In this document: one piece after another, positions 9,932-15,572 of the stretch
How positions within the stretch are numbered: the stretch's first letter is position 1
How the letters are laid out: every line of letters begins with the position of its first letter
From: an uncultured Fodinibius sp.
Lineage (GTDB): Bacteria > Bacteroidota > Rhodothermia > Balneolales > Balneolaceae
Reading direction: 5' to 3'
Length of the DNA: 64,000 bases
Assembly (NCBI GenBank): GCA_913056455.1
Contig: CAJXMJ010000001.1
Location: 186,001-250,000 of the forward strand
Program-made: the position numbers and the translations under genes
Notes under the pieces: generated by a model
What the model saw: the letters and a program-made list of their open reading frames with translations, nothing else
Told to the model about the DNA's origin: nothing
Database searches by the model: none

Positions 9932-12874
9932 TTGGATCGCAAAAAATTTAGAGACACGCTACGGAAGGGAATCAAAGAGAATCTGCAGGCCGATATTATT
10001 CGGCATGTTGAGGTACGCTTTGATGGTTTTGAGCAGTTGTTAAGATACTTTTCAGCGATAGAACGGAAATACGAAGCGGAAGAAATTATAAAGCAGGGAT
10101 TCTCGGGGATTCTAAAAAATATTAATGGCACGTTATCTGATAAAAACAGTGAGGATATTTTAGAGGTATATCTATCATCTGTTGATACGATCAGCAAAAG
10201 GTTTCCCGAGGAAGAAGTTTGGAAACAAAAGGAAGAACGGTTTGCAACACAGCCTGAAGATCCTGTTTGGATAGCACTTGGCAAGGGAGGTAAAAATACG
10301 GTTCGTGGTATTGCAAAAGTTGGCTATGGCGCTGCTCAATCCCTAAAAAGTATTTTTACAGGCAATAAAAAAGCCTACCCTGAATGGGAGCAAAGAATTC
10401 CTTTAGATAAAGTGATAGGGTTTCATTTGATGAATGATGAGTCCGTTCTGGGATGGGGGCATATTCTTGAGCGCGTTCAATTGGATTTAATCAGGGATAT
10501 TGAGGATTTATTAGTTAGAGGGGAGAATGAACAGCAAGCATTGGATTTATCTGCTTTTGTAGCGGATCAAAAGAACAGGCTGGAAGAGATAAAAGCTGAT
10601 CTGCTGGATAGGATAGAAAAAGCATTCAACAGTAAGCAGGCCCAAATAATTGAGGATGTTGAAAAAGTGGGGACCCTGGAATGGAATAGTGCGTTTTTTG
10701 ATAATGAACGACTGAAGACAAAAAATGAAAAAATAAGCAATCGGTTTCATACGCAAAAAGAGCAGTGGCAGCGTGTGCAACGACTCTTTTTTCAGCGAAC
10801 TGAGGACGTTGTTCAATTTTTGAAGTTACGATCTGAAATCGAAGAGGAGATTTTGAAATTTAAAGGGGCGTTTGAGGATATCTTTAAGGAATCGTTGATC
10901 GCTCCGCTCGGTGAATATTCAGCAGATCTTGAGCAGGCTATTGACAAGGTTAGTCAGGGAGCCTCGCTTAATGAATTGAGTACATTATATGAAATGCTCA
11001 TCACCTTTATAGATGAGAGACTGGTAGAACCCATTGAAAAACTGCTGGCTAAACAAATTTTGGCGGAAAAAACGGAGCATCTGTTTGAGGATCTGCTGCT
11101 AAAAATGGGACAGTCACCACAAGAAGCACAACTTGTTTTTGATGCCGATCTCGATAAAAATCCACCATCTGTTAATCAGGAGAAAGTAAAGTGGCGACAA
11201 CTAGTTATTCGTGCCCTTAGAGAACTATTTATGAATCCTTTGCAGCCGGCCAACCAGCAGTACGAGGATTTTTTATCTCAAAATCTGGAAGAGATTATAG
11301 AAATAAAAAATATAATATCCGTCAATTTTGATTCGGCTCTTAAAGCTCGTGATGAAGATATAGATCAGAGAGAAGATCCCACGAAAGTAGCCGGAGAAGC
11401 GCTCCAGCGTGTTTTATCAAAAGTTCAGGAGCTGCATGACCGGGCGGATGAAAAGTGGCAACAAATTCACAATTCTATAGATGAAGGAAGGGGTAAATTC
11501 TTCTCTTCTTTGATTGCTCTTTTGCATGAGGGAGATTCGAAGCAGCTGCAGCTGTTGAATGCCAAGTATACAATGAAAGAGAAAACGAAAGATTGGCAAA
11601 CGATTTTAGACTCTCGGTGGGCAAGAATTGAGGATCGGCTGATGCTGTGGAGCCGTTTCATTTGGAAAAAACTGAAGATGTACGGGGTCGATATCAAAGC
11701 GTTTCTGGGTTTCAAGGAGCGAAGGGTTCAGGAGTCGAAACGGGCAGATATAGCGACATATCTTTCAGAGACAGATCAAAAAATGAACAAGCTGCCCTAT
11801 ATTTATCGGCGTTTGTTTGATTTTCACTCTCTTGCCGATAAACAATTTTTTGAACCTGCACAGGAATCGACTTTGACGTTTAAAAGAGCGTATGAGCAGT
11901 GGCAAAATCAGTTTCCCACTAATTTTGCTATGGTTGGGGAAAAGGGTAGTGGAAAATCCTCATTTCTTAGTTTAGTAGCTGAATCTGAGGTCGGCGAAGA
12001 GCAGGTTTTAACCGCGGAGTTTGTAAATACTATTTGGGAAGAAGAACAGCTTCTAAACAAAATGGCAGCCGTTTTTGAGATTAAACCTCCCAATACTATT
12101 GAAGAGCTGGCGACAGCTATACAGGAGTCAGATCACCGTAGAGTGGTTGTCTTAGAATCTATACAAAATTGTTTTGTTCGAAATATTAACGGTTTTAAGG
12201 CTATTGAGAAGTTGTCGTATCTTATTTCAGAGACACGAAACCATATTTTCTGGATGGTTAGTTGTTCTCGTTATGCTTGGTCGTTTTTAGATAAGGTACT
12301 GCAGATTAGTGAGTATTTTTCTCACATCAGCAATAGTGATTCACTAAATGCAGAGCAGATTAAGCAGCTTATTTTAAGCAGGCATCAGGCCAGTGGATAT
12401 TCCCTTTACTTTGAGCCTGATGATCAAATACGTCAGTCGCGCACCTACCGAAAGTTAAAAGATCAGGAGGCGGAGGCTCAGGAGCATCTGAGGAAAGAAT
12501 ATTTCGAGAAGCTTACAAAGCTGGCGGAAGGAAACGCCTCTATTGCTATGATATTCTGGATACGATCTATTCGGGATTTTGACGAGACTTATTTTTATGT
12601 ACAGCCGCTCGAGGTAACTTCTGTAGAGATGATTGAGGATTTGAATCCACCAGTGTTGTTTGCATTGGCGGCTTTTGTATTACACGATACGTTGTCGGAT
12701 AAAGAGTTAGCCATGGTACTGAATATAAAACTTGAAGAAAGCAGGCTTTTGTTAAATCGGTTGCGATCGCGCGGCATGTTGATCGAAAAAAATGAGTCGT
12801 TCACTATTAACCATTTAATGTACCGACAGATCGTTCGGGTCCTCAAAGAACGCAATATAATTCACTTGGGATAA
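9932..12874 (+). CDS. Large coiled P-loop NTPase of unknown function, coupled to MscS
   Basis: A 980-residue protein whose family I do not recognise. Residues 1-650 are almost wholly helical and charged, with long Glu/Lys/Gln-rich stretches that suggest coiled coil. No signal peptide or membrane segment is seen. A Walker A motif GEKGSGKSS lies at residues 669-677, a Walker B-like strand RVVVLES at about 737-743, and a sensor-like MVSCSR at 775-780. The C-terminus (about 900-980: LSDKELAMVLNIKLEESRLL then LRSRGMLIEKNESFTINHLM) looks like a winged helix, as in AAA/STAND-type ATPases. The start is TTG at 9932: an in-frame stop lies 15 bp before it, and AAGG is spaced 8 bp away. The MscS gene starts 7 bp after the stop, implying co-expression. 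The biochemical role is unknown. Confidence 0.85.
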   Translation: MDRKKFRDTLRKGIKENLQADIIRHVEVRFDGFEQLLRYFSAIERKYEAEEIIKQGFSGILKNINGTLSDKNSEDILEVYLSSVDTISKRFPEEEVWKQKEERFATQPEDPVWIALGKGGKNTVRGIAKVGYGAAQSLKSIFTGNKKAYPEWEQRIPLDKVIGFHLMNDESVLGWGHILERVQLDLIRDIEDLLVRGENEQQALDLSAFVADQKNRLEEIKADLLDRIEKAFNSKQAQIIEDVEKVGTLEWNSAFFDNERLKTKNEKISNRFHTQKEQWQRVQRLFFQRTEDVVQFLKLRSEIEEEILKFKGAFEDIFKESLIAPLGEYSADLEQAIDKVSQGASLNELSTLYEMLITFIDERLVEPIEKLLAKQILAEKTEHLFEDLLLKMGQSPQEAQLVFDADLDKNPPSVNQEKVKWRQLVIRALRELFMNPLQPANQQYEDFLSQNLEEIIEIKNIISVNFDSALKARDEDIDQREDPTKVAGEALQRVLSKVQELHDRADEKWQQIHNSIDEGRGKFFSSLIALLHEGDSKQLQLLNAKYTMKEKTKDWQTILDSRWARIEDRLMLWSRFIWKKLKMYGVDIKAFLGFKERRVQESKRADIATYLSETDQKMNKLPYIYRRLFDFHSLADKQFFEPAQESTLTFKRAYEQWQNQFPTNFAMVGEKGSGKSSFLSLVAESEVGEEQVLTAEFVNTIWEEEQLLNKMAAVFEIKPPNTIEELATAIQESDHRRVVVLESIQNCFVRNINGFKAIEKLSYLISETRNHIFWMVSCSRYAWSFLDKVLQISEYFSHISNSDSLNAEQIKQLILSRHQASGYSLYFEPDDQIRQSRTYRKLKDQEAEAQEHLRKEYFEKLTKLAEGNASIAMIFWIRSIRDFDETYFYVQPLEVTSVEMIEDLNPPVLFALAAFVLHDTLSDKELAMVLNIKLEESRLLLNRLRSRGMLIEKNESFTINHLMYRQIVRVLKERNIIHLG

Positions 12875-12881
12875 CAACAGT

Positions 12882-13907
12882 ATGAATAGATTTATCAAGA
12901 TACTACTTCTGACAGTTCTCATCGTTATGGGGTTTCATGAGTTGGGCTCGTCTGTAGGGCGAGACACTGTCGCACAGCAATCCGATACTGTGGTTGTTAT
13001 TAAGCCAATACAGATTATTGATACGACCCAGGTGGACACCGTAAGCATTGATACGGCCCGTGCCGATACGAGCTCTGATTTGAGTAGAGTCGGACAAGAT
13101 ACCGGAAAAGCCCTCTCAGAGATAGAGAATCTTATTTCAGTAGGTGTAATACTGGCTATAATAATTGCTTTAATTATCACCTACTTTTTAAACCGATTTG
13201 TGGTAGTAGTGTTAGAAAACCTGTCAGAACGGTTTACCCGTTACCGCTTGGGGATTAAGCGCATGGTACCCGTAGTACGGCTGATAATTTGGTCTTTTGC
13301 CATTTATATCATTATTGCGGGCATCATTAATCCACCTTTGAGTACGGTTATTACAGTGTTGGCATCTATTGGTATTGCGGTCGGTTTTGCTGCACAAGAC
13401 ATCCTGAAAAATATTTTCGGCGGGTTTATCATCATTATGGATCGGCCCTTCCAAGTGGGAGATAAAATTCAGGTGGCCGAGCATTACGGGGAAGTACTTT
13501 CGATTGGATTGCGTTCCAGCAGAATTGTTACACCTGATGATTCCGTAGTGACGATTCCTAACAGCGAGTTGATGAACAAAGCGGTATCAAATACAAATTC
13601 CAGCGCGTTAGACTGTCAGGTGGTGGCCGAAATATTTTTGCCTATGAATGTAGATGTTGATGCGGTCAAAAGAATTGCTTATCGCGCTGCTGTGTCATCC
13701 CGATATGTCTATTTACAAAAACCGATTGCTATCATTGCATTGAATGAAGTGCATGAAGAAAATTTCGTGCTCAAGCTGCGGGTAAAGGCCTACGTTCTTG
13801 ATATCAGGTACGAATTTCCTTTTAAAAGTGATATGACAGAATTGATTCTAAATGAACTAAAACAACGTGATATGCTTCCTCAACAGAGGTATATCGATAA
13901 GCCTTAA
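12882..13907 (+). CDS. Small-conductance mechanosensitive channel (MscS family)
   Basis: A 341-residue inner-membrane channel that opens under membrane tension to release solutes. An N-terminal hydrophobic segment (residues 4-20) and an extracytoplasmic Asp/Thr/Val-rich stretch (to about 80) come first. Two more membrane helices follow, then the pore helix and adjoining beta domain, the best signature of MscS: SIGIAVGFAAQDILKNIFGG, then FIIIMDRPFQVGDKI. A cytoplasmic alpha/beta domain closes the protein. The extra N-terminal periplasmic stretch makes it longer than E. coli MscS (286 aa). It starts 7 bp after the large P-loop NTPase gene. This pairing suggests that the NTPase acts on or with the channel, but that is an inference. 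Confidence 0.93.
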   Translation: MNRFIKILLLTVLIVMGFHELGSSVGRDTVAQQSDTVVVIKPIQIIDTTQVDTVSIDTARADTSSDLSRVGQDTGKALSEIENLISVGVILAIIIALIITYFLNRFVVVVLENLSERFTRYRLGIKRMVPVVRLIIWSFAIYIIIAGIINPPLSTVITVLASIGIAVGFAAQDILKNIFGGFIIIMDRPFQVGDKIQVAEHYGEVLSIGLRSSRIVTPDDSVVTIPNSELMNKAVSNTNSSALDCQVVAEIFLPMNVDVDAVKRIAYRAAVSSRYVYLQKPIAIIALNEVHEENFVLKLRVKAYVLDIRYEFPFKSDMTELILNELKQRDMLPQQRYIDKP

Positions 13908-13922
13908 ATCTTCTAACCTAAA

Positions 13923-15572
13923 ATGTTGATGATTATGAAATCTACTTTAAATGCAGCCATAGCAATAATGGCAATTGCCTTTTTTCTGGCAGGTTGTCAA
14001 AGTATGGAAAACGACAACAAAATGTCGATTGATGACCGCTTGGATCAGTATACTGAATTTACCTTAACGGCGGATGTTTCATCCCTTAGTGATAATCAGA
14101 AAGAAATTATAAAGCTGCTTATTGATGCCGGCAAGGCCATGGACGAAGTGTTCTGGGAGGAAGCTTATGGTAAGAAGAAAACTCTTTTGAATAACATTTC
14201 TGAGAAAGAACAACGGTTTGCCCAAATAAATTACGGCCCTTGGGATCGGCTGAATGGCAATGAGCCTTTTATTGATGAGGTGGGACCGAAACCCGAAGGC
14301 GCTAATTTCTATCCTCCGGATATGACGAAAGAGGAGTTTGAGAGTTGGGATTCTGAAGCCAAGGATGATCTTTATACGCTGGTACGCCGAACGCAAGATG
14401 GAGGCTTAACAACCATTCCTTATCACGAGGCTTTTGCTGAGCAACATCAACGGGCTGCAGATAAATTGAAGGAAGCAGCTAAGCTGGCCGAAGATGAGGG
14501 GCTGAAAACCTATCTCAATCTACGGTCTGAAGCGCTCCTTACCGATGAATACCAGGAAAGTGATATGGCTTGGTTGGATATGAAAGACAATACCATTGAA
14601 GTGGTTATTGGGCCTATTGAGACTTATGAAGATCAGCTGTTTGGCTATAAAGCGGCTCACGAAACCTTTGTGCTGATTAAAGATAAGGAGTGGAGTAATC
14701 GTCTGTCGAAATATGCTGAAGTGTTACCCGAGCTGCAGGAAGGGTTGCCTGTTGCAGAGGAATACAAGCAGGAGGAGCCGGGGCGTGATTCGGATCTTAA
14801 TGCCTATGATGCAGTTTACTATGCAGGAGATGCCAACGCCGGGTCCAAAACTATTGCTATCAATTTGCCTAACGATGAAGAAGTCCAGCTGGAGAAGGGA
14901 ACCCGTCGTCTACAATTGAAAAATGCAATGCGGGCTAAATACGATAAGATTCTGAAGCCCATCTCCGAGGTTCTTATTGCCGAAGAGCAGCGTGAGTATC
15001 TGACTTTTGATGCATTTTTTGGCAATACAATGTTCCACGAGGTGGCTCACGGACTTGGGATTAAAAATACAGTCAATGGAAAAGGTACCGTGCGTGAAGC
15101 ACTCAAAGAACATGCATCGGCTTTGGAGGAAGGTAAAGCTGATGTGTTGGGATTGTATATGGTTTCAGAACTGCGCAAGGATGGTATGGTTGAAGAGGGG
15201 ACTATCGAAAATAATTACGTAACCTTTATGGCCAGTATTTTTCGTTCTATCCGATTTGGGTCATCCAGTGCGCATGGCAAGGCTAATCTTATTCGGTTTA
15301 ATTACTTTAAGGAAAAAGGCGCCTTCAGCTATGATAAAGAGACGGAAACCTATCGCGTAAACTTTAACAAAATTGCCGAAGCAACCGATTCGCTTTCCAG
15401 CAAAATTCTCACCCTCCAGGGGGATGGAGACTATGAAGGAGTTGCAGCATTTGTCGAGAAATATGCTACGGTTGGGGATCAGCTGCAGCAGTCGCTTAAT
15501 CGCCTATCTGAGCAGTCTATCCCGGTTGATGTAACCTTCAATCAAGGTGTGGATGTGCTCGGGTTGGAATAG
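13923..15572 (+). CDS. Lipoprotein zinc peptidase, M49 (dipeptidyl peptidase III)-like
   Basis: A 549-residue predicted lipoprotein: a hydrophobic leader ends in FFLAGC, with the lipobox Cys at about residue 25. The zinc site is HEVAHG (His372, Glu373, His376), followed some 25 residues later by EEGKADVLGL. This is the layout of M49 peptidases, where HExx(x)H is followed by EECRAE/D. The sequence has the short HExxH form rather than the HExxGH of classical DPP III, as I recall for some bacterial homologues, so the M49 assignment is by layout. Family members release dipeptides from peptide N-termini; the substrate is unknown. The likely site is the periplasm or outer membrane inner face. The gene follows mscS by 15 bp and ends at an intrinsic terminator, so it may be the third gene of that operon. 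Confidence 0.75.
   Translation: MLMIMKSTLNAAIAIMAIAFFLAGCQSMENDNKMSIDDRLDQYTEFTLTADVSSLSDNQKEIIKLLIDAGKAMDEVFWEEAYGKKKTLLNNISEKEQRFAQINYGPWDRLNGNEPFIDEVGPKPEGANFYPPDMTKEEFESWDSEAKDDLYTLVRRTQDGGLTTIPYHEAFAEQHQRAADKLKEAAKLAEDEGLKTYLNLRSEALLTDEYQESDMAWLDMKDNTIEVVIGPIETYEDQLFGYKAAHETFVLIKDKEWSNRLSKYAEVLPELQEGLPVAEEYKQEEPGRDSDLNAYDAVYYAGDANAGSKTIAINLPNDEEVQLEKGTRRLQLKNAMRAKYDKILKPISEVLIAEEQREYLTFDAFFGNTMFHEVAHGLGIKNTVNGKGTVREALKEHASALEEGKADVLGLYMVSELRKDGMVEEGTIENNYVTFMASIFRSIRFGSSSAHGKANLIRFNYFKEKGAFSYDKETETYRVNFNKIAEATDSLSSKILTLQGDGDYEGVAAFVEKYATVGDQLQQSLNRLSEQSIPVDVTFNQGVDVLGLE

Follow-up and report, generated by a model that had tools for sequence, protein, structure and literature searches.

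A 64,000-nucleotide stretch from an uncultured Fodinibius sp. of the family Balneolaceae, phylum Bacteroidota (contig CAJXMJ010000001.1, positions 186,001 to 250,000), referred to here as the window, carries a gene pair that encodes a large nucleoside triphosphatase (NTPase) and an MscS-family channel (Table 1). The NTPase reading frame opens with a TTG codon, found at the same position in close homologues, and closes with TAA at 12872-12874, and the ATG of the channel gene stands at 12882. An earlier note on this DNA had described a 980-residue protein with a Walker A motif, the segment VVVLES and a winged-helix-like end, followed 7 base pairs (bp) past its stop codon by an MscS gene; the protein was confirmed by the open frame, the motif positions and an AlphaFold2 model, and its neighbor by the coordinates and a PF00924 match. 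The Walker A sequence GEKGSGKS occupies residues 669-676 and the Walker B-like VVVLES residues 738-743, with the Walker A lysine (K675) and the Walker B acid (E742) both present in the window protein. E742 is shared by at least 90% of 24 aligned homologues, and the conserved motif LPYIYRRLF precedes the P-loop. Homologues with a name, at 40-78% identity, belong to Aliifodinibius/Fodinibius.

Table 1. Features of the NTPase-MscS pair (positions in the window; TM, transmembrane).
Feature	Position	Strand	Remarks
NTPase subunit, 980 residues	9932..12874	+	helical domain 1-620; LPYIYRRLF 621-629; AAA+/ORC-STAND-like P-loop domain; winged-helix-like end ~905-973
N-terminal helical domain, residues 1-620	9932..11791	+	absent from the 440-466-residue versions of two related genera
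C-terminal AAA+ module, residues 621-980	11792..12871	+	basis for finding relatives; short versions with it retain the MscS pairing
Intergenic gap of 7 bp, NTPase stop to MscS start	12875..12881	+	spacing short or overlapping in homologues
MscS-family channel, 341 residues, partner clade	12882..13907	+	signal-like N-terminus, three TM segments, beta domain, cytosolic cage

The downstream protein matches PF00924 with 77.2 bits (cut-off 20.2) over residues 173-239, and a simple hydropathy scan located its signal-like segment and its TM segments. By the Pfam cut-off it belongs to the MscS family, and tension-gated conductance is a prediction from this membership. Among the MscS, MscK and MscM equivalogs of NCBIfam, the best score was 68.9 bits, below the cut-off of 400.

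The two genes are inherited together within the family. Independent searches of 92 family genomes found the NTPase in 47 and the partner MscS (at least 440 bits) likewise in 47, with the next MscS at no more than 104 bits. Both genes were present in 46 genomes and neither in 44, leaving one genome with the NTPase only (G049) and one with the MscS only (G077), in each of which the unmatched gene lies at a contig end. In all 46 genomes with both, the genes share one contig and one strand, with MscS downstream. The gap between the matches is 3-244 bp in 45 of them and 699 bp in G079 (locus L056), where the MscS open frame itself starts 27 bp past the NTPase. Fisher's test of co-occurrence gives 8e-24, a value that is not corrected for relatedness.

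The pair also occupies a fixed site. On its 5′ side, all eight pair-bearing family loci compared have SDR, udk and amidase genes, and the 3′-side order of the window (M49, ankyrin, SAM and two more genes) recurs in six of the eight, the others being L042 and L045. The amidase and M49 genes were assigned by Pfam match, and the remaining flanking genes are those that we take to be SDR, udk, recQ, ankyrin and SAM genes. Six genomes chosen from the 45 without an NTPase match (G011, G012, G017, G006, G091, and G037), three of which belong to the window's own genus, all lack both NTPase and MscS at this site, and the udk-amidase genes face the same 3′-side genes, with approximately 220-440 bp between the aligned ends. 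This joint presence or absence at one place on the chromosome therefore means that the two genes come or go as one, whether by gain or by loss.

Outside the family, a profile of the C-terminal module found the NTPase in 73 of 395 genomes of a phylum sample at 170 bits or more, with the next rows at 60 bits or less. G000 was added to this list from a separate search, and matches below 30 bits, which made up most of the at least 151 genomes with a match, looked like chance P-loop matches and were not counted. Partner-type MscS, at 276 bits or more, occurred in 64 genomes of the sample (G108, at 109 bits, having been left out of 65), and the NTPase was present in all 64. The two genes lie on different contigs in G384 and G301, where the NTPase frame is cut by the contig end. 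Loci gathered by NTPase similarity, independently of MscS, contained 97 distinct NTPases (differing in the last 200 residues, and including that of the window). Five contig-cut loci (L037, L058, L129, L131, and L134) and four divergent ones (L136 and L172-L174) were kept out of the count. An MscS open frame is adjacent, on the same strand, to each of the 88 clear uncut NTPases, 73 times downstream and 15 times upstream, and the two frames overlap or stand at most 42 bp apart; some of these loci are truncated on the flank opposite MscS (among them L056, L057, L060, L105, and L171). The general MscS profile was partly built from channels that it scored (L106-L135, L137, and L139), and there gives the position of the channel rather than its family. 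The earlier note had regarded homologues mostly lacking an adjacent MscS gene as the finding that would overturn its proposal, and no such majority was found among these loci. With 46/46 adjacent pairs in the family and 88/88 among the distinct relatives that could be judged, chance is no plausible explanation of the pairing. The functional coupling of NTPase and channel that it proposed is strongly supported by the near-obligatory pairing and the joint absence.

In the channel tree, the MscS that accompany stand-alone NTPases (25 downstream and 11 upstream) fall into one group (Shimodaira-Hasegawa-like approximate likelihood ratio test, SH-aLRT, 91; not starred), which is separate from the other 18 MscS. 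Because upstream and downstream channels group together, the pairing seems to have outlived a change in gene order; the MscS and NTPase trees are quick ones with long branches, and were used for grouping rather than for the order of events. The MscS-upstream group includes same-class relatives and SAR324 (L061). At L123, L124, L126, and L128, a second, non-partner MscS is encoded divergently, upstream on the opposite strand, beside the MscS-NTPase pair. In G113, the coding sequence of the partner MscS is divided between two frames (L097:6460-7550), owing to a frameshift either of the gene itself or of the assembly. Other phyla were sampled via plasmids and one short-pattern scan. A Novosphingobium plasmid carries the pair with its genes 2 bp apart, and a Caulobacter plasmid carries it with a 4-bp overlap plus a second MscS; the MscS of both fall outside the stand-alone partner group in the tree. 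The Novosphingobium NTPase (L137:5604-8933) begins with a signal-like stretch, contains several hydrophobic segments at approximately residues 509-660, and may itself be membrane-anchored.

Short NTPase versions of 440-466 residues in two genera (L113-L115, L164, L165, L167, and L168) have no helical arm, and amount to a natural deletion experiment for it. They occupy the same chromosomal site in L113-L115, the three examined. These versions nevertheless retain MscS, which suggests that it is the C-terminal half on which the partnership with MscS depends.

The relatives that lack partner-type MscS link the NTPase to ion transport. Nine such genomes carry long NTPase versions, with open frames of 1466-1712 codons and another MscS type adjacent, and these nine together with L066 comprise nine exchanger-type loci and one SLC12-type locus (L132). 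A Na_H_Exchanger domain (PF00999) was found in the first ~440 residues of the proteins at L066, L106-L109, and L170, with 67-76 bits against a cut-off of 26.2; the window NTPase itself lacks this domain in the Pfam scan. The N-terminus at L110 has no Pfam match, yet is 42% identical to L066 over that part, and those of L111 and L112 are 89% and 26% identical, respectively, to L110. An AA_permease/SLC12-like cotransporter forms the N-terminus at L130, L132, and L135 (164-170 bits), and the genomes of L130 and L135 also have a stand-alone NTPase copy. When an SLC12-fused relative was compared with plasmids, only a plain amino acid permease was found (four Picosynechococcus records), the match lying outside the AAA+ part, and the candidate was rejected. 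The transporter part of the fused forms has 11-14 predicted TM segments, and an MscS-type frame follows all twelve fused NTPases, the SLC12 fusions being followed by small MscS. On the partner profile, these channels score 70-107 bits at L066 and L106-L111, 29 at L112, and 23 at L132; those beside L130 and L135 exceed the PF00924 cut-off, and that at L170 was scored by the general MscS profile only. Three of the nine exchanger-type loci (L106, L110, and L112) were examined for potassium-transport neighbors, and all three were positive: TrkH and then TrkA continue the operon in L106 and L110, while TrkA and TrkH precede in L112. In two operons, the gene immediately preceding the exchanger-NTPase fusion (L106:9551-10792 and L110:1727-2968) encodes a 414-residue protein for which 8-9 TM segments are predicted. 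This protein matched nothing in Pfam at E ≤ 0.01 and may be an additional transport subunit.

The four divergent loci, which score 51-60 bits in the phylum-sample search and 58-66 in the locus search, were treated apart. In each, the NTPase gene (749-808 residues) is followed first by that of a small protein, for which 2-3 TM segments are predicted, and next by that of a multi-TM protein, identified as a Na+/H+ exchanger in both of the loci scanned. In hhalign comparisons, the small proteins reach a probability of 95% against the SLC12-group MscS and of 90% against partner MscS (profiles of only 4 and 3 sequences), and the general MscS profile found only that of L136 among the four, at 20 bits. 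They may be reduced forms of MscS, judging from these profile comparisons. An AI-2E family permease is encoded directly upstream of the NTPase in L173 (8016-9059), and L174 has a like-sized multi-TM open frame there. The earlier note's suggestion of a link to stress is supported, by the transporter fusions and the TrkH/TrkA neighbors, in the form of ion and osmotic homeostasis.

The NTPase belongs to no library family that was searched. No Pfam model scored above its cut-off, and no matches were found in NCBIfam, PADLOC, or the Protein Data Bank (PDB) sequences. AAA_22, AAA_16, and ABC models were considered and set aside as sub-threshold P-loop resemblance. Models of STAND type stay below the cut-off in some relatives (nSTAND1 at L112, 23.2 bits against 27.1), and none is listed for the window protein. 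An AlphaFold2 model built with 30 natural sequences (mean predicted local distance difference test, pLDDT, 80.9; predicted template modeling score, pTM, 0.50) shows residues 1-620 as nearly all helix, with helices of up to 84 residues and a few short strands, the longest at 399-406 and 413-419, and residues 621-980 as a P-loop domain leading into a winged-helix-like terminus. Foldseek grouped the C-terminal part with ORC/Cdc6-type AAA+ proteins (1w5t_A, E 9.5e-8), as did a second aligner, with 7jgr_G (Z 15.7, 3.3 Å over 243 residues) and 1w5t_C (Z 15.2, 5.6 Å over 326 residues, reaching residue 977). At the fold level, an AAA+ core with a C-terminal winged helix of ORC/Cdc6 type was thus found. 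Since NSF chains score almost equal to ORC chains and Apaf-1/NLR chains appear lower in the Foldseek list, the C-terminal part is best described from the model as ORC/STAND-like AAA+, without firm placement in a clade. The N-terminal domain modeled alone (residues 1-618) gave a pLDDT of 82.5 and a pTM of 0.68, and Foldseek found no match to it in the PDB at E ≤ 0.001; weaker rows (among them TolQ, ExbB, ZorA, and toxin chains) were taken as long-helix look-alikes. The ~650 residues of charged helix of the earlier note are therefore helical, but more than merely coiled and charged, as residues 1-620 resemble a folded domain with conserved stretches.

Conservation of the nucleotide-binding site varies with gene arrangement. 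The Walker A lysine is kept in 65 of 93 aligned relatives and missing in 28, where it is replaced by R (15), I (4), A (3), M (2), or, once each, H, N, V, or T. None of the 16 MscS-upstream rows has it, compared with 48 of the 58 MscS-downstream rows and every one of the 15 transporter-fused and alphaproteobacterial rows. The last Walker B position is E in 71 of the 93 and D in 16. At least five changes at the lysine are needed on the quick tree. Hydrolysis can hardly be essential in every relative, and a binding or structural role may be what is essential everywhere. Since many lineages do not have the lysine, ATP-driven work appears less likely than nucleotide binding or a structural function, and the NTPase probably acts as a nucleotide-binding switch or as a scaffold rather than as a motor. 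The P-loop is intact in the clade of the window, where nucleotide switching is likely for that reason.

NTPase and MscS almost certainly form one functional unit, and this unit probably serves ion and osmotic homeostasis. The best explanation of the whole, held with somewhat better than even confidence, is that a cytosolic NTPase regulator controls the MscS channel within this unit; that the NTPase gates the channel is itself about an even bet. A regulator of ion flux is proposed because all versions share the NTPase module and an MscS or MscS-like protein, while the ion transporter varies. The regulator, in which a long helical arm is joined to a nucleotide-binding domain of ORC/STAND type, would bind the channel (and the fused transporter) from the cytosolic side and read an internal cue, such as nucleotide state, ionic strength, or crowding. 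The opening threshold of the channel would then be raised or lowered, and solute release would be matched to ion uptake and exchange; where a transporter is fused, the same cue could be coupled to exchange or cotransport. We infer the contact, the direction of control, and the cue. Fodinibius salsisoli 1BSP15-2V2, the source of locus L046, is described in a published account as a moderate halophile with a salt-out strategy, judged from its genome (PMC9909488).

Several observations weigh against a regulator that acts on the channel. Physical contact and gating rest on inference, and co-inherited neighbors need not touch; channel and NTPase occupy separate open frames in every locus seen, with no fusion of the two. 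Extra constraint is not clear in the cytosolic cage of the partner channel: its mean identity is 0.828, compared to 0.764 in a free paralogue, and the beta domain differs likewise (0.874 compared to 0.810). The unit is evidently dispensable, since no NTPase appears in 45 of the 92 genomes of the family and paralogues of MscS are frequent. The nearest Pfam-assigned neighbors in the window, an amidase and an M49 peptidase, are not ion transporters. By region, the partner is more alike than the paralogue in the cage in 31 of 36 comparisons, in the beta domain in 22, and in the TM part in 18 (non-independent pairs from 9 genomes). The E. coli MscS was reported to interact with FtsZ via its cytoplasmic domain (PMC4440785), which shows only that an MscS cage can have partners.

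The earlier note also likened the layout to that of membrane-effector defense systems. In a defense reading, a STAND-like sensor would open a membrane channel upon phage attack, as in abortive infection. The resemblance of the AAA+ domain to ORC/STAND proteins, with Apaf-1 and NLR chains among the weaker Foldseek matches, the patchy occurrence of the pair (47 of 92 family genomes), and the alphaproteobacterial copies seen on plasmids (a plasmid collection being what was searched there) are in keeping with this idea, and inactive STAND modules have been proposed as sensors in bacterial conflict systems (PMC8195603). In that eLife paper, the terms MscS, mechanosensitive, and ion channel each have no occurrences. 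The pair, however, sits at a fixed chromosomal site alongside SDR, udk, and amidase genes in 8/8 family loci compared; at the sensitivity used, no relatives of the window protein were found in 50,697 phage records (tblastn) or in viral contigs (a scan of two short patterns); and neither protein matches any family of PADLOC-DB 2.0.0 at E ≤ 1. The neighboring recQ, udk, and ankyrin genes match the PADLOC helicase, mad, and ankyrin models, which are read as shared domains. The Na+/H+ exchanger and SLC12-like fusions and the TrkH/TrkA neighbors fit ion homeostasis. A defense role is accordingly rated as quite improbable, and this part of the earlier note's proposal is not supported.

An AAA+ factor that folds, inserts, or remodels the MscS heptamer, for assembly or quality control, would account for the NSF/ORC-like core and for the short or overlapping gene spacing, but the loss of the Walker A lysine in 28 of 93 relatives, including the whole MscS-upstream group, and the fusion to secondary transporters, odd for a chaperone, make it unlikely. 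Information could also flow in reverse, with the channel sensing tension and signaling via the NTPase, whose winged helix would bind DNA and alter transcription, as its resemblance to ORC/Cdc6 might suggest. DNA binding by this putative element is conjectural, ORC/STAND proteins routinely contain a winged helix as a structural element, and the fused forms tether the NTPase to a transporter with many TM segments; this reading is accordingly rated as very doubtful. The repeated change of the Walker A lysine would suit a structural scaffold, with MscS and transporters gathered into clusters by the helical arm and the NTPase fold surviving as a relic. The lysine is nevertheless kept in most MscS-downstream rows (48/58) and in all 15 transporter-fused and alphaproteobacterial ones, and the short versions without the arm still keep NTPase and MscS, so that a scaffold alone is distinctly unlikely.

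A peptidase M49-like gene (13923-15572) starts 15 bp past the MscS stop in the window. Such a gene also follows MscS in L047 and L115, not so in L048, L050, and L114, and it is retained in two pair-less genomes (L206 and L207).

The pair suggests an unrecognized switch that governs how salt and swelling are dealt with in the cell. MscS serves in textbooks as the example of a force-gated channel that works on its own, and a cytosolic layer of control over osmotic valves may have been overlooked. The chances are roughly balanced that the pair represents a widespread AAA+ "osmo-switch" class, in which MscS, and elsewhere also Na+/H+ exchangers and SLC12-like cotransporters, are placed under common nucleotide-binding control, so that some bacterial MscS would be regulated channels in an ion-homeostasis complex instead of autonomous valves. 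If true, the logic would be comparable to that of animal cell-volume control. The question of regulation becomes testable through natural absences (the pair being present or absent within one genus), the short versions, and the lysine-less versions. A search of open-access full-text literature, with subscription journals mostly outside it, found no description of such a pair. The parts of which it is made (MscS, AAA+ proteins, and exchangers) are themselves known.

The pair can be compared with several known systems. The window channel shares with the MscS family (PF00924) a score above the Pfam cut-off and three TM segments, but it belongs to a partner group found only with the NTPase (64/64 phylum-sample genomes), whereas descriptions of MscS channels elsewhere are of valves that act autonomously and are gated by tension. 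With ORC/Cdc6 and STAND AAA+ proteins, the window NTPase shares the fold of a P-loop domain and a winged helix; it differs in passing no Pfam cut-off, in its MscS neighbor, in the N-terminal helical arm or membrane transporter, and in the Walker A lysine, often changed in relatives. In RCK/TrkA-type and c-di-AMP control of K+ transport, cytosolic nucleotide-binding modules regulate ion transporters for turgor. Nucleotide-binding control of ion transport would be common to both, and TrkA is encoded in the three operons examined, but the RCK fold is a Rossmann fold, in contrast to the AAA+ fold here, and its targets are others. The bCNG channels, in which MscS is fused to a cyclic-nucleotide-binding domain, likewise combine an MscS channel with a nucleotide-binding regulatory part; there, the regulatory part is a small, fused cyclic-nucleotide domain, whereas here it is a separate, large AAA+ protein.

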